Assembly (NCBI RefSeq): GCF_029910235.1
Contig: NZ_CP112874.1
Span: 2,666,001-2,730,000 of the forward strand
Length of the DNA: 64,000 nt
Reading direction: 5' to 3'
Source of the DNA: Pseudanabaena galeata CCNP1313
GTDB taxonomy: Bacteria; Cyanobacteriota; Cyanobacteriia; Pseudanabaenales; Pseudanabaenaceae
The notes under the pieces were generated by a model. The model was not told where the DNA came from. It saw only the letters and a program-made list of their open reading frames with translations, and ran no database searches. Every line of letters starts with the position of its first letter. The first letter of the stretch is position 1. The translations under genes and the position numbers were made by a program. This document shows positions 44,875-61,206 of the stretch, one piece after another.

Positions 44875-45504
44875 ATGGAATGGATTATCGGTAATGTAGC
44901 GATCGCAATTACTGCTTTTACTGCTACAAATATCGATGACATTCTCATTCTCACAATTTTCTTTGCTCAAGTTGATGAAAAATTTCGTCCGCGTCATATT
45001 CTGATTGGTCAGTACTTAGGTTTTGGATTAATTCTCTTAGCGAGTTTGCCTGCATATTTGGGTGGTCTGATTATTGACCCTAAATGGATTGGACTGTTAG
45101 GGCTATTACCGATCGCGATCGGGCTTAAAGATTTATTCCAAAAACAAGAAGAAGTAACTGTGCAAACTTGCGCGATTCCTGAGCAAAGGAAATCAACTCT
45201 AATCGCGCCACAGACTTATCATGTGGCGGCTGTCACTTTTGCCAATGGCGGCGACAATATTGGCGTTTATATTCCTCTATTTGCGAGTAGCAATGCAGTT
45301 ACTCTCTCAATTACGATCGCTACTTTTTTGATTCTGATCACAGTTTGGTGTTATGCCGCCAAAAGTATCAGTAGTCATCCTGCGATCGCTAAGTTTCTTA
45401 CACAATACAGTGATGCGATCATGCCTTTTGTCTTAATTGCGCTAGGTATTTACATTCTCTACGAAAGCAAAACCTATCAATTGCTTCCTTTTGTTAAATC
45501 ATGA
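44875..45504 (+). CDS. CadD-type cadmium resistance/transport membrane protein
   Basis: The start is ATG 44875 with TTGAGGAAA just upstream (209 aa); a longer frame begins earlier but lacks a ribosome site. It has six hydrophobic segments with the family signature ITAFTATNIDDILILTIFF and the repeated TFANGGDNIGVYIPLFA. CadD proteins export Cd2+ or related ions; specificity cannot be read. Its 3' end overlaps the convergent TOPRIM-like gene by 6 bp. Confidence 0.8.
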   Translation: MEWIIGNVAIAITAFTATNIDDILILTIFFAQVDEKFRPRHILIGQYLGFGLILLASLPAYLGGLIIDPKWIGLLGLLPIAIGLKDLFQKQEEVTVQTCAIPEQRKSTLIAPQTYHVAAVTFANGGDNIGVYIPLFASSNAVTLSITIATFLILITVWCYAAKSISSHPAIAKFLTQYSDAIMPFVLIALGIYILYESKTYQLLPFVKS

Positions 45505-46125
45505 TTCTTCAGATATTTCAATATTTCTACTCTCAAGTTGCTCAATAAAAATCTTCAAGCTTGGATTTTTAGAATAGAGATTTAATAAATCATCGTGATT
45601 GCGGTATCTCTCGGTAATTTCTTGATAATAATCGTATTTTTTCCTAAAGCTGGGAACGGTTTTTTCTAAAGTTTGACAACAGTTTTCTATTTCTGCACTT
45701 TTATCATCAGAGGCTAATAAAGGAAATAGCCAGCACTCTATTGAATGGACTGCGATCGCAAAAATAATTCGATGTCCATACTGACTATAAAATTCTTCTC
45801 CCATCTGCTTTTTAAATTTATCGACTGTTTTATCAATTAATTGTTGTGGAGAAAGTGGTTGATTATTTTCGTAATGTGAAACGCCAAAACTTTCGGATAC
45901 ATCAGTATCGACATGAATAATAATATATCTGTTAGCTAGAAAAGCTCGTTTTAATTTTTCTGGCTTACAGCTTTTAAAAACTTTGTCGTAATTAGATGAG
46001 GCTTTAAAGTTGATAGGGCTAATCGGGTTGATATCAATTTTACTGTCTTGAAAATATCCTATCAAAATACTATTAATAATAGGAAAATCAGTTATTCCTT
46101 CTACAATTGCGCCAAATGTATACAT
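45499..46125 (-). CDS. TOPRIM/RloB-DUF4276-like protein, partner of ATPase
   Basis: The start ATG 46125 is one base after the stop of the ATPase gene, so the two are translationally coupled (208 aa; a longer frame begins inside the ATPase). Acidic motifs fit a TOPRIM-like nuclease: FGAIVEGITDFPIINSIL (Glu), YIIIHVDTDVSES (DxD) and AIAVHSIECWLFPLL, the last like the E-W motif in RloB/DUF4276 proteins. Together with the adjacent AAA ATPase it resembles AbiL-type abortive infection or other two-gene phage-defence systems. Function is inferred; no nuclease assay or search supports it. Confidence 0.6.
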   Translation of the reverse strand: MYTFGAIVEGITDFPIINSILIGYFQDSKIDINPISPINFKASSNYDKVFKSCKPEKLKRAFLANRYIIIHVDTDVSESFGVSHYENNQPLSPQQLIDKTVDKFKKQMGEEFYSQYGHRIIFAIAVHSIECWLFPLLASDDKSAEIENCCQTLEKTVPSFRKKYDYYQEITERYRNHDDLLNLYSKNPSLKIFIEQLESRNIEISEES

Positions 46126-46126
46126 A

Positions 46127-47353
46127 TTAAAAATTTTTCGGTAGTCCACCAATATAACCATTTATAAAAGCCTCTGACAAAGGCGCAATTTCATCGTCGT
46201 CTAAGGGTTCTAATGGAGCTATACGCCTAGCTTGAGTATGCCCATCCATATTTCGATAAATAACAAAAAGCTTTTGTTCATCGTCACTTAAATCTAATCC
46301 ATCTAAAATCGCAGGATTATGAGTTGTAAATATAACTTGTTTATCATATTTCTTAGCTAGTTCTACTAATTCTTGAATTAGTCTTGTACATAGTTTAGGA
46401 TTTAGTGCATTTTCAATATTGTCAATCGCAAAGAATTTCGGCGTATCATCACTGACAAATAAAGCAAAATAAAACATCAAAAACAAAAAACCTTCATTAG
46501 AGCTTCTTTGATTAAAGTAAGGTAACTCTTTATCTAAGTATCTATCTTTAATTTGAATAATTCTTTCTAATTCAGAATCAACTGAAAGCTTAAAATCATC
46601 AAACCAATCAATTAAATTGAGCCTTTGTTTGATTTCATTGATTTTATCTTGATTGTTATTTAAAACTCTTAAAAGTTTTAATAAGCCTTCTCCTTTAATG
46701 CCTAAAGGTTGAACTTGACCTTCTTCAGCGAAGATTCGTAACAGAGAGTTTTCAGGAGAATAAATTATAAAATGTTTGATTTCATCACTATATTGAATGT
46801 ACTTATTTTTTAAGTTAAGTAAGAAGTAAGTTATTGCATCGTATGAAATTTTCTCGCCAAATTGACTCTCAAAAAAATCTTGAGTAATCTTAGCTATACG
46901 CTCAGTTTCTTCACTGGATTTTAGATTTAAAGCTACTTTTTCGTATTGACTAGTTACACCTTGAGGAACCCAGTTTAAAACATCAAGTTTCCCAATTACT
47001 CCAGCTTGAAGCCAATTTGAGTAAGGTTGATTGTCATGCTGAATTATAAACTGCAAATTACTTTCTTCTAAATTTTCTTTTTGCTTTTTCTTTAAATTTA
47101 TTTTTATATCTTTTGTAATATTCTCTTTATCAAAGGCTGATCGCATAAATTCTGGCTCAGTAACTCTAATTCCTCTAGGAGCTAAAAACTCATTGTCTAA
47201 CTTGTCAGCGGCGGCAGCAGAAGCCAACGCGATCGCTTCTAAAATATTGCTCTTCCCACAACCATTCTCACCAATGAACACATTAACCCGACCCAAATTT
47301 ATCTTGAGATTTTGGATAGACTTATAGTTCTCGATTTGAACTTTGGTAAACAT
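46127..47353 (-). CDS. AAA15/21-type SMC-like ATPase
   Basis: The protein has 408 aa. The N-terminus VQIENYKSIQNLKINLGRVN and Walker A FIGENGCGKSN are followed by a long helical insert. Near the C-terminus come a Walker B-like FFAIDNIENALNP and an H-switch IFTTHNPAILDGL. This is the ATPase seen in OLD, AbiLi, PARIS (AriA) and similar defence proteins, here without a fused TOPRIM. The next gene supplies a TOPRIM-like protein. Local sequence is visibly AT-rich with AT-biased codons, suggesting acquisition. Confidence 0.8.
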   Translation of the reverse strand: MFTKVQIENYKSIQNLKINLGRVNVFIGENGCGKSNILEAIALASAAAADKLDNEFLAPRGIRVTEPEFMRSAFDKENITKDIKINLKKKQKENLEESNLQFIIQHDNQPYSNWLQAGVIGKLDVLNWVPQGVTSQYEKVALNLKSSEETERIAKITQDFFESQFGEKISYDAITYFLLNLKNKYIQYSDEIKHFIIYSPENSLLRIFAEEGQVQPLGIKGEGLLKLLRVLNNNQDKINEIKQRLNLIDWFDDFKLSVDSELERIIQIKDRYLDKELPYFNQRSSNEGFLFLMFYFALFVSDDTPKFFAIDNIENALNPKLCTRLIQELVELAKKYDKQVIFTTHNPAILDGLDLSDDEQKLFVIYRNMDGHTQARRIAPLEPLDDDEIAPLSEAFINGYIGGLPKNF

Positions 47354-53270: not shown

Positions 53271-54485
53271 TTACAAAATCTTTTTATATAGATCGATGTA
53301 ACGTTTTGCTTGTAGTTCTAGAGAATATTCAGCAAGGGCGATCGCCCGACAATTAGCGCTCATTGTTTGCCGTAATTGCTCATCTTCTAGCAACATCACA
53401 ATACCCTTACAAAAATCCTTAGCATCTTCAGGTTTTGCTAAATAACCAGTGAACATATGTCTCACTAGATCTGGAACACCACCGATATCAAAGGAAACCA
53501 TTGGAGTTCCACAAGCCATACTTTCTTGTAGTACTAGAGGTAGGTTGTCAGCACGGGTAGGAAAAACAAATAAATCAGATGCCGAATAAGCAATAGACTT
53601 TAAGCGATCGCTATAAATATATCCCAAATTAATAGTTCGCATTCCTAATTCAGAGGTAATAGTTTCACTACCATTACCAAAAGTTAAAAGTACTGTTTCA
53701 GATTTTAAAAATTGAGGTAATTGTTGCAGAGTCTTTAATAATAAATCTCCTCCTTTTCGTGTGTCTTTAAGACTATCTGCACCAAATAAAAGAACTCTTT
53801 TGTTACTAGGAATATCTAAAATAGATTTACATAAAAGTCTATCTACTGGTAGATAAGCATTTGTATCAATACCATAGGGAATTTGGTGAATGGGAAACCC
53901 CTTAAGCATACTTTTTTTGGCTTGCTCAGTTAACCAATTACTAGGAGTGACGATTACTAAATTTGATTTACTGTAACTCCAGTCTTTAAGTTTCCATTCA
54001 ATCCGAGTACTATCGCGATAAATGGCAGGATAGGTATCAGGATGAGGGCATTTGCCACAGCCAAGTTCCCAGCGATCGCAGTCATAGCTATAGGCACAAT
54101 GTCCAGTAAAACTCCACATATCATGGAGCGTGAAAACTGCGGGTTTAGTTTTAGTTAATGTAGGAATAGCTAAATAGTTAAAGTAACCAGTATGTAAATT
54201 ATGAAAGTTGAGAAGATCTGCATCTTGATAAAACTTGTGCTTGGGAATATTAAAACTGCTAAAAAGATTAATGTAGTTAAGCCCAGAATACCTTGTCAAC
54301 CGATTCAGTTGATTTTCAAAACGAGGTTTACGAGGAATAGATGCTATGCGATCGCTATCAGTCTTCACAGTTCCAACCAGCATCCTAGAATCAATCCCTT
54401 GTGCTAATAAGCCTTGATGTAGGCGAAATCCTGCGATCGCCGCCCCACCAGAAATATCAGATTGATTGACATGAAGTATCTTCAT
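53271..54485 (-). CDS. GT4-family glycosyltransferase
   Basis: The 404-aa protein has a two-Rossmann GT-B fold. The N-terminus KILHVNQSDISGGAAIAGFR and C-terminal PTRADNLPLVLQESMACGTP with DIGGVPDLV are the GT4 pattern. A Cys-rich insert HCAYSYDCDRWELGCGKCPH (about 130-150) could bind zinc and is typical of one GT4 subgroup. It probably adds a sugar to a surface polysaccharide. The start overlaps the methyltransferase stop upstream by 4 bp. Confidence 0.88.
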   Translation of the reverse strand: MKILHVNQSDISGGAAIAGFRLHQGLLAQGIDSRMLVGTVKTDSDRIASIPRKPRFENQLNRLTRYSGLNYINLFSSFNIPKHKFYQDADLLNFHNLHTGYFNYLAIPTLTKTKPAVFTLHDMWSFTGHCAYSYDCDRWELGCGKCPHPDTYPAIYRDSTRIEWKLKDWSYSKSNLVIVTPSNWLTEQAKKSMLKGFPIHQIPYGIDTNAYLPVDRLLCKSILDIPSNKRVLLFGADSLKDTRKGGDLLLKTLQQLPQFLKSETVLLTFGNGSETITSELGMRTINLGYIYSDRLKSIAYSASDLFVFPTRADNLPLVLQESMACGTPMVSFDIGGVPDLVRHMFTGYLAKPEDAKDFCKGIVMLLEDEQLRQTMSANCRAIALAEYSLELQAKRYIDLYKKIL

Positions 54486-55330
54486 ACTACTGGCTTTACA
54501 GCTTCTATATATAGGGAGTCAGGTTTGTAAACAGAACCATCGGGTTCTGTGTCTAAATAAAATTTAGTCCATTCATCAATAAAGCTCTCATATGCATTTC
54601 TTTTTGTGATTTCTGCTAGCCCACAATTTTTTAGCAAGATAGATAATGAATAACGATCATACATCCATTGATGAACTTCCCCACTTTGTCGAAATTGACC
54701 AATTTTCAGTGCATCTAACTCTGCTGTGCTAAGAATAAGTTTGAGCAGTTCTTGATGACGGTAATCACGATATTTCAATAGACGATAAATATATTTGATC
54801 AGTTTTACCATCAAGTTTTCAGTCGTAGGACTTGGCAAATATTTGTATTTTTGAGCAGTAATAATATTTTGAATTTCAACTCCACAACGACTAACTATAA
54901 AGTCTTTGCTATACAGATCTTGACGAGAAAGAAAATTAATCATTTCTCCTCCTGTCTGGTTTCTCACAGTTTGATCATACATTTCTAGAAGTACCCATTG
55001 GTAATTCTGATCTAATTCCTGAGAATTAATATTAGCTTTTTCTAAGCAATCCAGATAAATTCTCGCTATTTGTTCAAGATCTGGAACTACTATTCGTAAA
55101 ATTCCTTTTGGGCGTAAAACGCGATAGCACTCCTTTATAAATAGTTCTGCTTCAGCTTTAGGGATATGTTCCAAAACATGAGAATGATAGACTACATCAA
55201 ATGATTGGTCTTGGAAGGGAATTCCTTGCCTTAAATCATGGGCAATCACAGTCTCACCTGTAGATATAAAGTTAATATTTGTCCAAGATGGATGAAAGCG
55301 CTGACCGCAACCAAGATTAAGATATTTCAT
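54482..55330 (-). CDS. SAM-dependent methyltransferase (type 11)
   Basis: The protein has 282 aa. Motif I YLNLGCGQRFHPSW is followed by VVYHSHVLEHIPKAEAELFI and VLRPKGILRIVVPDLEQIAR, the class I methyltransferase pattern. The substrate is probably a sugar in the same polysaccharide cluster. It overlaps the next methyltransferase by 14 bp upstream and the GT4 gene by 4 bp downstream. Confidence 0.85.
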   Translation of the reverse strand: MKYLNLGCGQRFHPSWTNINFISTGETVIAHDLRQGIPFQDQSFDVVYHSHVLEHIPKAEAELFIKECYRVLRPKGILRIVVPDLEQIARIYLDCLEKANINSQELDQNYQWVLLEMYDQTVRNQTGGEMINFLSRQDLYSKDFIVSRCGVEIQNIITAQKYKYLPSPTTENLMVKLIKYIYRLLKYRDYRHQELLKLILSTAELDALKIGQFRQSGEVHQWMYDRYSLSILLKNCGLAEITKRNAYESFIDEWTKFYLDTEPDGSVYKPDSLYIEAVKPVV

Positions 55331-56234
55331 CTAACTTTTGAAATTGTATATATATACTTTGTCCAGTCAAAAAGTGTCTTAAGCCAGATTTAAGAATATA
55401 GCTATAGATATTATTAGTGTAACGATTGAATAAAATCTTAGCCTGTGGGCAGATACTATAAAAGTAATTGCTATACGCATTGATATATCCATTCACATGA
55501 TATCGAGCTAATGGTTCTTTAATCACTCGTTCCAACTTTATAGGAAAAATATTTTCTAATGATTTAAATGTCAAAATTTCCCATTGAGTCATATGATGAG
55601 GTGGCATATCCATCAGGTTATACTGATATTTTAGAAAACTCTGAGCATTTGGTACACATAAAATCAATTTCCCATTAGGCTTTAATATCTGAAGACATAG
55701 TTCAATAAATTTTCTAGGTTCGGAGATATGTTCAAGTACTTGAAAACAACAAATTGCATCTTGAGATAAAGGATAAAGTTTTGCAAAGTCATTTAAATCA
55801 ATGTTTTCAATAGGTAGATTATTACTTTTAGCTACTTTAACTGCGGCTAGATTAAGTTCAATACCTTTAGCATTAATACCTAAGTTTAACGCTGATTCCA
55901 CAAACGAACCAAATGCACAACCTACTTCTAAGATGTCATTGCAGTCTAATAAATTTTTTAGAGCAACTTTATGTTCCCACTTGTTTGGCATATAAAACCA
56001 ATCTAATTTTTGCAATTGCTCATAGAGTTTTTCAGAACCAGCAATATCAAATGGGAAGAAAAATCTAAGTTTACTGTCATTGCATTGATATAAATAGATT
56101 TCTGGATAGTGGTTTAATTCTTCTGTTATATCGATATCATAAATATTTCTCCAATCATAAATTAACTGATTGGTATTAAATATTTTTAATAAAGTTATAT
56201 TTTGAGAATAAGTTAAGGGACTGATAGCCATCAT
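55317..56234 (-). CDS. SAM-dependent methyltransferase
   Basis: The 305-aa protein has an N-terminal ~85-residue extension before the class I core. Motif I is ILEVGCAFGSFVESALNLG, followed by QDAICCFQVLEHISEPRKF and ILKPNGKLILCVPNAQSFL. The substrate is unknown; the context points to polysaccharide decoration. It lies 12 bp after the upstream glycosyltransferase. Confidence 0.82.
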   Translation of the reverse strand: MMAISPLTYSQNITLLKIFNTNQLIYDWRNIYDIDITEELNHYPEIYLYQCNDSKLRFFFPFDIAGSEKLYEQLQKLDWFYMPNKWEHKVALKNLLDCNDILEVGCAFGSFVESALNLGINAKGIELNLAAVKVAKSNNLPIENIDLNDFAKLYPLSQDAICCFQVLEHISEPRKFIELCLQILKPNGKLILCVPNAQSFLKYQYNLMDMPPHHMTQWEILTFKSLENIFPIKLERVIKEPLARYHVNGYINAYSNYFYSICPQAKILFNRYTNNIYSYILKSGLRHFLTGQSIYIQFQKLDEIS

Positions 56235-56246
56235 AAATACTAGCCT

Positions 56247-57242
56247 TTAACAACTATTAGGGGTGAGTTTTTTAATTGCCGAAAAATAAAGACCTATTGG
56301 ATCTTTAAATAAGCGAATAATTCTCTGTTTAGATGTTGCAAGATAAGAACGTAGCCTACCAGAAAAACTATTCGCTTCTTTCATCGCTATTCCCCCAAAA
56401 ACATGATTAAAAGTATATTCATCAGCTATGCGATCGCGTACTAGGAAAGATGGGTGATAAATTTCACCAATATCTTGAACTGGTATATTAGCAAACTTTG
56501 AATCCCATGTAATATGAGTTCCATCACTACGACAACCGATATTTGAGACTAAGTTAACATTTGGCAATACTGTCAGTCCACTATTTTGCCAGCACGTAAA
56601 AGTCCAAGGATAAGCCCAAGAATTAGGCTGACCTAATGTGTCTAATCTCTCAAAGATATCACACCAATATTTTATTTCTAACTCACTATCCAGAATGCTT
56701 TTTAGATAGTGACCATCTCTAACTGTTTGCCAGTTAGATAGATCGTGATCATAATATTGCCAAGCTCGCCGCCAACTTGCCCAACCCCAGCAGTGGTTAT
56801 AGTTTGAGAAATAATAGCTTCCATTACCACGCCATTGTCCATTTTGAAAGTTATCGCCACTAATGCACCAGATCCGTTTATCTTCACGATAATATTCCAG
56901 TAGCTCTTGACAATATCTAAAAAAGGAAGGATGTGGAAAACAATCATCTTCTAAAATAATTGCCTCCTCCACTTGTTCAAAAACCCAATCTAGTCCGCTA
57001 CTTACTCGCTTACGACAACCGAGATTTTTATCTGCGTAGTTTCTTAGGACTTCACAATCCCAATCTACCACTTCAGTGACAGCACGAGCTTGCTGACATA
57101 GTTCCACTTCTGACTCATTGCGTGCGCTATCGGCTATAACTAAAAGTTTCTTAGGTTTAGCTTGTCGAATCGCCTCAAAAACTTGAGCAGTTAGATCGGG
57201 GCGACGGAAGATAAAAAATGCGATCGGGGTTTCACAGTGCAT
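56247..57242 (-). CDS. Glycosyltransferase (GT-A, GNT-I-like)
   Basis: The protein has 331 aa. The start TPIAFFIFRRPDLTAQVFEA and the sugar-nucleotide metal motif EEAIILEDDCFPHPSFFRY (EDD) are characteristic. NHCWGWASWRRAWQYYD is the family C-terminal motif. It probably transfers a hexose in the same cluster. A 249-bp gap precedes it, so it may begin a second transcript. Confidence 0.82.
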   Translation of the reverse strand: MHCETPIAFFIFRRPDLTAQVFEAIRQAKPKKLLVIADSARNESEVELCQQARAVTEVVDWDCEVLRNYADKNLGCRKRVSSGLDWVFEQVEEAIILEDDCFPHPSFFRYCQELLEYYREDKRIWCISGDNFQNGQWRGNGSYYFSNYNHCWGWASWRRAWQYYDHDLSNWQTVRDGHYLKSILDSELEIKYWCDIFERLDTLGQPNSWAYPWTFTCWQNSGLTVLPNVNLVSNIGCRSDGTHITWDSKFANIPVQDIGEIYHPSFLVRDRIADEYTFNHVFGGIAMKEANSFSGRLRSYLATSKQRIIRLFKDPIGLYFSAIKKLTPNSC

Positions 57243-57491
57243 AAATTCGCATCTATAAATTACTTGAGGGAGTCATTCAGAATCAAGAATTTCTATTAAA
57301 GAATAAGGGCAAAGGGGGGGATTTGAAAAGATAGCTGGGATTTACGAATTGCGGCACTTTAAGTTTTTAGATAAGCTTTGTCCAGTATTTTTACAGAGTT
57401 ATTGTAAAGGAAGTTAGACTATAATAGTATATCTAGTCTTGATCTAAAATTATCAATTCCTTCTTATCTCTATAACCCAGAGATGCCTAAC

Positions 57492-58496
57492 TTATAAAAG
57501 CTTAAAAGATTTAGCTAAATTAAGAATCTCTTGGGTTCGTTCGGATTTTATAGCCTTGACTATTCCATATAAGCTTCCTATATAGCTTGCGATCTCAAAA
57601 CTAATTTCATGTTTACGCTTTGGGCGTAATATTTGCTTTATTTTTAACTTGACAAGCCTCTTATGAATTTGTAGCTTTGATGGTAAGTTGTAGTCTTGCT
57701 CTTTCTTCTCAGGAAACGATTGATATAGAGCAGGCATATAAGCTGAGGATGTACCGAAATGCAGTCTCGCCATGTATGAAAAATTAGCTTTTGAAATAGG
57801 AATTAAATGATTGCACTTGAGTATAGGAATCATCCCTGCCGCAAAGCCTAACTTCATACCTTCCCAGACAATCTGAACATCGCCAGCACTAGAAAGTTGA
57901 GTTCCTTTACGGTCATTTGACTGAAGGTTTCCATTCTCTACAGCTTCCAAGTATTTATTTAATATTTTTCTTCTCACTGCAAACCCGGTACCATTTGGAT
58001 AATACTGCCCCCAATTTGCTGGCTCACAAATATATGCAAAAGGTCGTCTTCGTTGTTGGAATTTTTCTTTGTTATCTAAAAACCATAAATCTACAGCATC
58101 CACGTATTCAACTTCTATGTGACCAGGTCCCCAAATTCCCACATTAGGATATTTTTTAAAATATTGGGAAAGTATCTCTAGGTAGTCAGGAGCAGGTTCG
58201 TTATCGTCATCAAAAAACACTACTATTGAAGCTAATGTAGCCTTAATTGCAGTACATCTTGCAGCGGTCAATCCCTGTTTTGTTTCAATAATACATTGAG
58301 AATTTGGTGCTTCGCACAAAAAATCTCGTACTTCTGAATAAGAATTAAGAGGAGGTGACGAATTATTATCAACAATGATCACATCTACTTTCTCTGTATC
58401 TGATTTAATGATTTGTAGCAGTGCATTAAGCAACCTAGCCAATAAACGCAGGTCTGGATTATATGTACAGATAGCGATCGCAAACTGACTTTCCAT
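57492..58496 (-). CDS. GT2-family glycosyltransferase
   Basis: The 334-aa protein has the GT2 pattern QFAIAICTYNPDLRLLARLL, VDVIIVDNNSSPPLNSYSE, TASIVVFFDDDNEPAPDYL-like DDD segment and YPNGTGFAVRRKILNKYLE. A basic tail (KRLVKLKIKQILRPKRK) may contact the membrane. It is a polysaccharide glycosyltransferase of unknown donor, 21 bp after the upstream methyltransferase. Confidence 0.85.
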   Translation of the reverse strand: MESQFAIAICTYNPDLRLLARLLNALLQIIKSDTEKVDVIIVDNNSSPPLNSYSEVRDFLCEAPNSQCIIETKQGLTAARCTAIKATLASIVVFFDDDNEPAPDYLEILSQYFKKYPNVGIWGPGHIEVEYVDAVDLWFLDNKEKFQQRRRPFAYICEPANWGQYYPNGTGFAVRRKILNKYLEAVENGNLQSNDRKGTQLSSAGDVQIVWEGMKLGFAAGMIPILKCNHLIPISKANFSYMARLHFGTSSAYMPALYQSFPEKKEQDYNLPSKLQIHKRLVKLKIKQILRPKRKHEISFEIASYIGSLYGIVKAIKSERTQEILNLAKSFKLL

Positions 58497-58517
58497 TGAT
58501 TATACCTAATTTCTATT

Positions 58518-59249
58518 TTAGCTAACCAGTACCTTTAATGACTTTATAAACATTTTAATATATGTCTTAGGACTAATTTCTCCATCAATCATCTTTCTAT
58601 TTATATCCAATTGCCTAATGTAACTCTGATAATAACTTTCATACAAGATAGGATGGACAAGAGGCAATATACGCTCTTCTGTGCCTGCTATTTTTTCATC
58701 TTTTTTAGCAACAAATATATTTTGCTTATACCAATATTCAGGAAAGTCGTAGTTCCAGATTATCGGTCTAATTTCGTCGAAACAAGCATAACCATAATTA
58801 TTAAAAATTTCCTGCCAATATGAAGGCCATTGACAATTTATATGTCCTTGCCCACCTTGATGTGGACATGCAGCAGAAAAGATAATTGTGTTGGAATGAA
58901 GAATCAATGAATAGATAAGGTTGACGGCAGATTCTTCAGGTAAATGTTCGGCTACTTCTAAACATATTGCCAAATCAAATTTCTTGTTTAAATCCCATTT
59001 TCCTCTCAAATCTTGATAAAAAAAACTTTCTTTTGATACTAAAAAGTTGTCACTTATGACTTCTATCCCATCAACGCCTAAAAAATCTTCGATCCCACAT
59101 TCGGATATGACTTTCAGCCAAGTTCCTTTACCACAGCCGATATCTAATACACTCTTAGGGTTGTATTTTTTATTGATTATTGGGAATATACGAGAAGGAG
59201 CATCTATTAAATGTAAATTTTGAGAATGATCATAATCAATTTTATTCAT
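58518..59249 (-). CDS. SAM-dependent methyltransferase
   Basis: The start is ATG 59249, with GGAGGAGCT placed ideally upstream (the ribosome site lies in the end of the TylF-like gene). It has 243 aa; motif I is SVLDIGCGKGTWLKVISECG. DLAICLEVAEHLPEESAVNL and AACPHQGGQGHINCQWPSYW follow. A longer frame of 11 extra residues lacks this ribosome site. The substrate is probably a glycan. Confidence 0.85.
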   Translation of the reverse strand: MNKIDYDHSQNLHLIDAPSRIFPIINKKYNPKSVLDIGCGKGTWLKVISECGIEDFLGVDGIEVISDNFLVSKESFFYQDLRGKWDLNKKFDLAICLEVAEHLPEESAVNLIYSLILHSNTIIFSAACPHQGGQGHINCQWPSYWQEIFNNYGYACFDEIRPIIWNYDFPEYWYKQNIFVAKKDEKIAGTEERILPLVHPILYESYYQSYIRQLDINRKMIDGEISPKTYIKMFIKSLKVLVS

Positions 59250-59251
59250 AA

Positions 59252-59938
59252 TTAAGCTCCTCCTTTTTTTTTGATTACACAAATACCATTAAAAGATTCT
59301 ATTCTTTCAGTTTTAGATGTTTTGCTCAAAAAATCATGCACAGCTCTACTACATCCGTCCCAAGTATAGTAATCATCTAAGACAATTATTCCTCCTTCTA
59401 CAACTAAATCAAACAGATTCTCTAAACATGTATAGGTTGATTTATACCAGTCTGCATCAAGACGTAGAAATGCGATTTTCTCGTTAAGTCTAAAATTAGG
59501 TAATGTTTCCTCAAACCATCCTTCTTTTAGAAAAAAATTATCAGCTATAGACATTTCCATTGCTTTTTGTGCGTATTCCCTTGGTGCATAGCAATTTTCA
59601 TAGTAATTTTTAGCACTAGTATTAGATTGCCACCTGATAGCAGCTTCTCCATCAATCGTTTGAGCTTCTGGAAGACCCTGAAAACTGTCGAACAGATAAT
59701 AGTTCCTATTGTTACCAAGTAAATCAGCTAATCCAGCTATCATACCTCCTCGCCAAACTCCGCATTCAATTATACATCCATCTAGGTTAGAGACTCCTTC
59801 GGCAATTAGAAGATTATGTGTGTACGTCCTTTCAGATATCATGGTGAACCGTTGAAACTTAGTATATATTTTTCTAAGTTTTGACAGTTTTTTTTGAGTT
59901 CTTAATTTCCCAATTCCGTAGTCTATTAAATTGATCAT
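59252..59938 (-). CDS. TylF/MycF-family sugar O-methyltransferase
   Basis: The protein has 228 aa. Motifs GCIIECGVWRGGMIAGLADL, NYYLFDSFQGLPEAQTIDGE and GGIIVLDDYYTWDGCSRAVHDF are those of TylF/MycF macrocin-type O-methyltransferases. In surface-polysaccharide loci such genes methylate sugar hydroxyls. It lies between the Wzt-type ATPase (23 bp upstream) and another methyltransferase. Confidence 0.88.
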   Translation of the reverse strand: MINLIDYGIGKLRTQKKLSKLRKIYTKFQRFTMISERTYTHNLLIAEGVSNLDGCIIECGVWRGGMIAGLADLLGNNRNYYLFDSFQGLPEAQTIDGEAAIRWQSNTSAKNYYENCYAPREYAQKAMEMSIADNFFLKEGWFEETLPNFRLNEKIAFLRLDADWYKSTYTCLENLFDLVVEGGIIVLDDYYTWDGCSRAVHDFLSKTSKTERIESFNGICVIKKKGGA

Positions 59939-59961
59939 GTTATAGATAACTTTTTTACAAA

Positions 59962-61206
59962 TTATATTTCTGACGAAAATGAAATTGGGACAATATATCC
60001 ATGATCTTTTGTGTGGGGATATGTTCTGCCTATTATGGGAGAGTCATTCACTTCAAACAAAGTTACTTCTTTTACCCAGTCAATTGTTTGTGAATTGTGG
60101 CTACCCACCCATACTGAGGTTAAGTAATGACCAGGGATTAAAGGAGGAAGTTTAATTATTACTCTTAGAAAATGTAATTTATCTTTATCTGTGATTGACT
60201 TTTCAAGTGTTGGTATTGCCTGCATAATGACTATTCCAGAATTATCTGCAATATCAATTGCCAAAAAAGCTGGTTTATGTGAGCTAGTAGATTCAAGCTT
60301 TATTTCAAACTCAAGTTCTAAATTAGGCTGCTTTGCCTTGAGAATTGTTTTAACGTAGACGATCATCAATGTGCATTTTTGCATATCTTCAGATCTAGCC
60401 CAAGTCATGCCTTGATGTTGTATATTTTCACCCTCATAAATTAAAAGACAGTCAGAAGAACTACCGACTCTTGTAAGCCTACCCTCTCTTAATAGTATTA
60501 CTGTTGAGCATAGTTTTCTAATAGCAGACACATTATGGCTAACAAATAAGACAGTTCTTCCCTCCTTTTCCGCCACATCCTCCATCTTCCCTAGACATTT
60601 TTTTTGAAATATCGCATCTCCTACGGCTAATACTTCATCAACGATCAAAATCTCTGGCTCTAGATGTGCTGCTACTGCAAAAGCCAAGCGTACATACATT
60701 CCTGAGGAATAACGCTTAACTGGAGTATCTAAAAAATTTTCTACTTCTGCAAAGGCAACTATTTCGTCAAATTTTTTCTTGATTTCTGATCTATCCATTC
60801 CCAAAATTGCGCCGTTAAGATAAATATTCTCGCGACCTGTTAATTCTGGATGGAAACCTGTACCGACTTCTAGGAGACTAGCTACTCTGCCTCTGATGGA
60901 GATTTTGCCAGCAGTGGGTTCGGTGATGCGGCTGAGGATTTTGAGGAGAGTGGATTTGCCTGCGCCATTGCGTCCGATAATACCAACGCGATCGCCTTGC
61001 TTAATTTCAAAGGATACATCTTTGAGCGCCCAGAACTCCTCACTAAGATCCTCATGCTTTGCTTGGCGATCGCCAGTTAAGCCCTGCCAAAAAGACATGG
61101 CTCCATTAGCGATCACATCACGTAAAGCTGTGTAGCGTTCTTGCTTTTGGTGACCGATAATGTACTTCTTACTTAAGTTTTCGACGCGAATTACGACATC
61201 AGACAT
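59962..61206 (-). CDS. Polysaccharide ABC exporter ATPase (Wzt-type)
   Basis: The protein has 414 aa. Walker A GIIGRNGAGKSTLLKILSRI, signature YSSGMYVRLAFAVA and Walker B PEILIVDEVLAVGD are clear. A C-terminal ~150-residue beta domain, typical of Wzt, would bind the glycan end and set export specificity. It heads the glycan cluster. The membrane partner (Wzm permease) is not in the window. Confidence 0.9.
   Translation of the reverse strand: MSDVVIRVENLSKKYIIGHQKQERYTALRDVIANGAMSFWQGLTGDRQAKHEDLSEEFWALKDVSFEIKQGDRVGIIGRNGAGKSTLLKILSRITEPTAGKISIRGRVASLLEVGTGFHPELTGRENIYLNGAILGMDRSEIKKKFDEIVAFAEVENFLDTPVKRYSSGMYVRLAFAVAAHLEPEILIVDEVLAVGDAIFQKKCLGKMEDVAEKEGRTVLFVSHNVSAIRKLCSTVILLREGRLTRVGSSSDCLLIYEGENIQHQGMTWARSEDMQKCTLMIVYVKTILKAKQPNLELEFEIKLESTSSHKPAFLAIDIADNSGIVIMQAIPTLEKSITDKDKLHFLRVIIKLPPLIPGHYLTSVWVGSHNSQTIDWVKEVTLFEVNDSPIIGRTYPHTKDHGYIVPISFSSEI

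Follow-up and report, generated by a model that had tools for sequence, protein, structure and literature searches.

The question raised by positions 45499-47353 of the window, as we call the whole 64,000-nucleotide stretch of Pseudanabaena galeata CCNP1313 DNA analysed here, is what kind of system its two adjacent genes form, and which part of that system might recognize a phage. To our knowledge, the phage-recognising part is not known for most ATPase-TOPRIM defence pairs.

The gene pair, its family and its distribution

The two genes are as follows.

46127..47353, minus strand: ATPase gene, 408 aa, OLD-family ABC ATPase (PDC-M31A); full-length match to PADLOC PDC-M31A (2.1e-79), with further matches to Pfam AAA_21 and AAA_15
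45499..46125, minus strand: effector gene, 208 aa, predicted TOPRIM-type nuclease-like protein (PDC-M31B, DUF4276-like); PDC-M31B 8.7e-7, DUF4276 5.5e-6; model pLDDT 92

The genes are adjacent, lie on the same (minus) strand and, as the first-pass annotation had read them, are separated by one base. The ATPase ORF runs from the ATG at 47353 to the TAA at 46127 and the effector ORF, downstream of it, from the ATG at 46125 to the TGA at 45499, giving the junction TAA-T-ATG. The ORF list contains a 220-aa version of the effector, which begins at an in-frame upstream ATG overlapping the ATPase; comparison with relatives supports the 208-aa version. The pair is also more AT-rich than its neighbours, as had been noticed: the GC content is 27-29% in the middle of the ATPase and 31% in the effector, and 27-39% in segments of the region, versus 41.6% for the window. 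Its neighbours encode a rhomboid protease, a permease and a cadmium transporter, the gene downstream of the effector being the cadmium-transporter homologue, on the opposite strand. Promoter and terminator scans returned hits at chance level only. Elsewhere in the window, positions 53271-61206 form an AT-rich stretch with glycosyltransferases, methyltransferases and a polysaccharide ABC-transporter ATPase, which resembles an ordinary surface-glycan locus.

Among the defence-system models searched, PDC-M31 matched best, over AriA and AbiLi. The ATPase aligns with PDC-M31A at 2.1e-79 (265.5 bits) through residues 1-406 and positions 1-394 of the 395-position profile; the next matches are far weaker, namely AriA at 1.4e-32 (112 bits), HEC-01A, and AbiLi at 3.3e-23 (80.8 bits). 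The AAA15/21 type assigned earlier agrees with the Pfam matches (AAA_21 8.9e-21, AAA_15 1.3e-19). The effector matches PDC-M31B at 8.7e-7, as judged by E-value, over positions 8-203 of 233, and Pfam DUF4276 (PF14103) at 5.5e-6 with 27.2 bits, which is under the curated cut-off of 30.2; a plasmid-borne relative bears the DUF4276 annotation. Of the 63 effectors aligned, PDC-M31B matches 61, DUF4276 38, HEC-01B 20, RloB 17 and AbiLii 3, and DUF4276 and RloB are the only Pfam families matched. The ATPase with a separate TOPRIM/RloB-like effector that had been proposed is supported, and so is a DUF4276/RloB/AbiLii-like kinship of the effector.

By these profile matches the pair is a divergent member of the PADLOC candidate system PDC-M31: the ATPase matches over its full length, the effector matches PDC-M31B and the genes are adjacent, the difference being a divergent effector (8.7e-7). 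The proposal that it might be a divergent AbiL-like system or a new type thus has to be corrected, since the pair is already in PADLOC and AbiLi reaches only 3.3e-23. The PADLOC entry has candidate status only and gives no mechanism. No paper naming PDC-M31 or DUF4276 was found by a name search whose scope took in few subscription papers.

PARIS, AbiL, Gabija and fused OLD nucleases were each weighed as the family of this pair and rejected. PARIS (AriA/AriB) likewise consists of two adjacent genes for an OLD-family ABC ATPase sensor and a separate TOPRIM nuclease; however, AriA scores 153 bits below PDC-M31A and the effector has no DUF4435/AriB match (E up to 1), in line with the earlier remark that it does not clearly match AriB or a fused OLD nuclease; encoded by its own gene, it is no fused OLD nuclease. 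AbiL (AbiLi/AbiLii) and the RloB/DUF4276 proteins share the combination of an ATPase with an RloB/TOPRIM-type effector in two genes, but the AbiLi match has only 80.8 bits (3.3e-23), and AbiLii matches 3 of the 63 relatives and not the window effector. Gabija and fused OLD nucleases differ in that the window ATPase and nuclease are separate genes and no UvrD-like helicase partner lies downstream.

The pairing is beyond chance and obligate. An effector, intact or partial, stands directly behind the ATPase in 81 of the 87 homologous loci, mostly with a gap of 0-5 bases. The 87 loci come from Cyanobacteria, Bacteroidota, Gammaproteobacteria, Desulfobacterales, Myxococcota and Armatimonadota; of those with a name, the nearest belong to Pseudanabaena species. 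In the other six the ATPase stands alone (L036, L049, L052, L055, L059 and L060), with an effector remnant in L055. In L052 Walker B is degenerate, as if the ATPase decays after effector loss. Frameshifts split the effector genes behind intact ATPases at L047:4511-5225 and L093:8409-9199, which suggests that effector loss is tolerated or selected. Two Microcoleaceae loci carry an apparent small antitoxin and PIN-type toxin pair after the effector's place (L036:11263-11768 and L059:1406-2112). A Thiotrichaceae MAG (L044:1080-5267) has an ATPase whose reading frame continues upstream, with no stop, through a restriction-methyltransferase-like protein, making one frame of 1395 aa, possibly a fusion or a lost stop beside a restriction enzyme.

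The distribution is patchy and partly plasmid-borne. In the genus, 17 of 26 genomes have the ATPase, and for the most part its sites differ between them; the rhomboid gene is present in 26 of 26, and the pair lies near it in three. Relatives are carried on plasmids of 5.8 kb (Paracoccus), 10-13 kb (Acinetobacter) and 134 kb (Pseudanabaena), the small ones being mobilizable. Around 38 homologues, with up to four flanking genes on each side, no neighbour family is seen more than three times among the 133 genes; therefore the pair is no housekeeping operon, the arrangement that the first-pass annotation had named as speaking against a defence role. Defence genes are few among the same 133, a count that, having no matched control, is evidence neither way.

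Conserved residues of the effector and the ATPase

The residues discussed here are the following.

46087..46101, minus strand: effector E9...D13 (EGxTD), metal A and metal B acids spaced i/i+4 as in OLD (PMC7049728); E9 in 63/63, D13 in 62/63
45901..45909, minus strand: effector D73-T-D75 (TOPRIM DxD), 63/63
45736..45744, minus strand: effector S128-x-E130 (metal B S/T-x-E; PMC7049728); E130 in 62/63, S/T128 in 48/63
45640..45642, minus strand: effector K162, invariant (63/63), candidate for the OLD catalytic Lys/Arg
47249..47272, minus strand: ATPase Walker A GENGCGKS (residues 28-35); K34 in 70/70 relatives
46490..46498, minus strand: ATPase signature-region NEG (residues 286-288), invariant in 70/70
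46418..46423, minus strand: ATPase Walker B D311-N312, Asn for the catalytic Glu in 69/70
46319..46321, minus strand: ATPase H-loop His345, invariant in 70/70

All three effector motifs picked out by the first-pass annotation are present: VEGITD at residues 8-13, HVDTD at 71-75 and IECWLF at 129-134. Among the 63 relatives, E9, G10, D73, D75, C131, W132, C149 and K162 are invariant. OLD nucleases use a Glu, an acid at +4, DxD, S/T-x-E and a Lys/Arg, which in Ts OLD are E377, D381, D431/D433, S478/E480 and R487 (PMC7049728). In the alignment, the window set E9, D13, D73/D75, S128-x-E130 and K162 reproduces the OLD metal A/B ligands; K162, by its invariance, is a candidate equivalent of the Lys/Arg. 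OLD nucleases and GajA have in common with the window pair the ATPase superfamily and the nuclease residue set, and they are among the best solved-structure matches of the effector model.

A model of the effector built from 63 sequences (pLDDT 92, pTM 0.89) superseded an earlier, mediocre one from seven sequences (pLDDT 71). Re-aligned to solved structures, it gave Z 8.1 with PH0156 (the first row), 7.8 with the TOPRIM of B. pseudomallei OLD, 6.4 with Ts OLD and 5.3 with GajA; the STING and lumazine-synthase rows of the structure comparisons we took as common alpha/beta arrangements. Z values of 6-8 are supportive of a TOPRIM fold, short of proof. Foldseek alone gave no significant match for the model, and a sequence search of solved structures found nothing; accordingly, the fold claim draws on model and motif together, by which the effector looks TOPRIM-like and is a predicted nuclease of TOPRIM type (OLD-like). 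A fold lacking a TOPRIM core, which had been named as evidence against the defence proposal, is not what was predicted.

In the ATPase, the profile alignment places a Glu in the solved retron ATPases and in Eco8 OLD at the column of N312; the sole exception to D-N among the 70 relatives is the degenerate motif of L052, a locus that has no effector. Loss of the Walker B Glu slows hydrolysis in ABC ATPases and favours the ATP-bound dimer. Because this Glu is Asn, the ATP-bound state of the window ATPase is probably long-lived, and the natural absence of the Glu predicts a switch rather than a motor. The replacement is a point of difference from PARIS; Ts OLD is likewise off consensus at this position (PMC7049728).

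Mosaic ATPase and reassortment with the effector

Compared among 16 Pseudanabaena genomes, the ATPase is a mosaic, in which a segment exchanged as a whole block lies between conserved parts.

47108..47353, minus strand: N module, residues 1-82, conserved; Pseudanabaena alleles average 93% identity
46760..47086, minus strand: hypervariable cassette V, residues 90-198 (edges ~85 and ~205), mean 23% and median 19% identity; proposed sensor
46319..46735, minus strand: C1 module, residues 207-345 (signature, Walker B, H-loop), conserved, mean 86%
46130..46276, minus strand: C2 tail, residues 360-408, whose variation in Pseudanabaena goes with the effector allele (Mantel r 0.72)

Identity is 90-100% up to residue ~85, falls to no usable homology until ~205 and is 80-100% again to ~345; the means are 92.7% for N, 23.0% for V (median 19%), 86.4% for C1, 80.2% for C2 and 58.2% for the effector. 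The V values are two-peaked, 112 of the 120 allele pairs having 10-30% identity and the remainder 40-100%, and the cassettes, ~77-120 aa long, are swapped as whole blocks. In SR411 (L024), the nearest syntenic strain, the flanks are mostly 92-100% identical to those of the window, with no homology in the cassette; its effector is 64-73% identical over most of its length, and identity is 98% again just beyond the effector end. SR411 also has ~1.5 kb of extra DNA, absent from the window, between the rhomboid gene and the ATPase (L024:2721-4250). The same segment is hypervariable in other groups, with V at 27% versus 91% for N in Microcoleaceae, 17% versus 80% in Methylococcales and 11% versus 54% in Bacteroidota.

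The possibility that V is a plain fast-evolving SMC arm was rejected by a control with the RecN proteins of these 16 genomes, RecN being an ABC ATPase similar in build: no 40-column window of RecN falls below 59% mean identity, whereas the cassette drops to 13-18%. A separate single-gene OLD-type ATPase-TOPRIM protein of this genome (592 aa, L151:653-2431) occurs in 2 of the 26 genomes of the genus and was unusable as a control. Binding of acidic DNA mimics through positive charge was rejected as well, the cassettes being neutral to net -9, so that charge gives no support to it. Tandem or flanking repeats, as a source of diversification, were looked for at the locus and none were seen.

In Pseudanabaena, V and the effector reassort independently. 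Each of the 7 genome pairs with a shared V (51-100% identity) has different effectors (44-59%), and each of the 20 with a shared effector type (78-95%) has different V cassettes (13-47%). The Mantel correlation is -0.09 between V and effector (p 0.83), compared with 0.72 between C2 and effector and 0.53 between C1 and V (both p 5e-5). Neither V nor effector identity follows RecN relatedness (r -0.01 and -0.08, respectively): genomes with 97% identical RecN have V cassettes of 16-21% identity, and genomes with 84% identical RecN have V cassettes of 99%. Microcoleaceae, Methylococcales and Bacteroidota show a weak positive V-effector correlation (r 0.27-0.51), which probably reflects shared ancestry, and complete decoupling is therefore shown for Pseudanabaena only. 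The C2-effector correlation is 0.72 in Pseudanabaena, 0.52 in Bacteroidota, 0.46 in Methylococcales and 0.13 in Microcoleaceae. We rejected residues 360-408 as an effector-docking site, since the link is missing in Microcoleaceae (0.13) and physical linkage explains it equally well.

The first-pass annotation was borne out in its two-gene architecture and had missed the ATPase mosaic, the V-effector reassortment and the absent Walker B Glu. What was already known is the pair as an unnamed candidate system; newly described here are the cassette, its reassortment and the conserved loss of the Walker B Glu, for none of which a description was found in the literature searched, a body that covers few subscription papers. 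The PADLOC description of PDC-M31 has no cassette structure; set beside PARIS, the cassette is a feature described here for the window pair. A likeness in working is to the HsdS specificity subunits of type I restriction systems, in which a conserved framework carries variable blocks exchanged between strains by recombination. HsdS differs in having no sequence relation to the ATPase, and the window block lies inside an ABC ATPase.

Proposed mechanism and alternatives

In PARIS, the TOPRIM nuclease AriB stays sequestered by AriA until a phage protein such as Ocr binds and sets it free to cut tRNA (PMC12409363; PMC11455837); in E. coli, AAA ATPase/TOPRIM_OLD pairs likewise behave as antitoxin-toxin couples (PMC10440598). 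The same logic fits the window pair, and we lean, by a little, towards reading it as a two-gene, toxin-antitoxin-like abortive-infection system of PDC-M31 type that works like PARIS and AbiL. The ABC ATPase would assemble, stay ATP-bound for long and keep the TOPRIM nuclease inactive; a phage component would bind the hypervariable segment and alter the assembly, and the nuclease so freed would cut an essential nucleic acid (tRNA or DNA), whereupon the infected cell would stop. Homologous recombination in the conserved ATPase parts would swap the segment, and the effector with the ATPase tail would be swapped separately, leaving strains with differing sensor-effector combinations. Of this picture, the pairing, the catalytic residues, the mosaic, the independent reassortment and the patchy, partly plasmid-borne distribution are observed, whereas the trapped ATP state, the hold of the ATPase over the effector, the sensing of a trigger through the segment and the anti-phage function itself are what we infer. 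Block exchange independent of the effector would be the pattern expected of a sensor under changing phage pressure. That the pair is a combinatorial immune receptor, with an exchangeable sensor domain between the halves of the ATP core, reassorting TOPRIM alleles and an ATP lock brought about by the Glu loss, we regard as plausible, if on balance somewhat doubtful.

The same abortive-infection system could instead vary its segment to escape phage inhibitors or DNA mimics while a conserved part reads the trigger. Such an arms race, too, would favour numerous old alleles and exchanges among them, and the conserved modules N and C1 could be where a general trigger, for example DNA ends or nucleotides, is bound; however, whole-block swaps with length change (~77-120 aa), rather than changes of surface sites, resemble specificity-domain exchange more. 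This version carries real weight as an alternative, although we consider it unlikely. Less probable still is an addiction module of the toxin-antitoxin kind, serving to stabilise plasmids or islands with no phage sensing, the ATPase being the antitoxin and its variability blocking cross-neutralisation between co-resident modules. Although small mobilizable plasmids do carry the pair and E. coli offers the precedent of AAA ATPases that neutralise TOPRIM_OLD toxins (PMC10440598), the antitoxin segment and the toxin should then covary, against r -0.09 in Pseudanabaena, and most copies are on genome-assembly contigs rather than known plasmids.

We give very little weight to a self/non-self locus, whose cassette alleles would recognise products of competing mobile elements or strains as in allorecognition: the many alleles per genus, unrelated to the species phylogeny and exchanged by recombination, would suit it, but secretion signals, an immunity partner or a contact-dependent function are not in evidence. 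Equally improbable is a DNA-repair or cell-cycle ATPase-nuclease pair with no immune role, because, although ordinary genes adjoin the pair in the window and related OLD-family ATPases can be housekeeping, as reported for the archaeal OLD-family protein Cran1 (PMC12796447), this pair is missing in 9 of the 26 genomes of the genus, mostly sits at different sites, is found on plasmids, is hypervariable and has neighbours among which no Pfam family is seen more than three times in 133 genes.

Under the abortive-infection reading, the variation found in nature singles out a stretch of ~110 residues, clearly bounded, as the candidate recognition segment, and through the cassette it becomes possible to test directly what ATPases of this kind sense. 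Matched strains differ mainly in the segment or mainly in the effector, so that sensing and killing should be separable by swap. If this is confirmed, the sensor could be re-aimed through cassette exchange, and defence surveys based on whole-protein identity would undercount the functional diversity of this family. If the combinatorial receptor is true, one locus would hold a genus-wide repertoire of sensor-weapon combinations.
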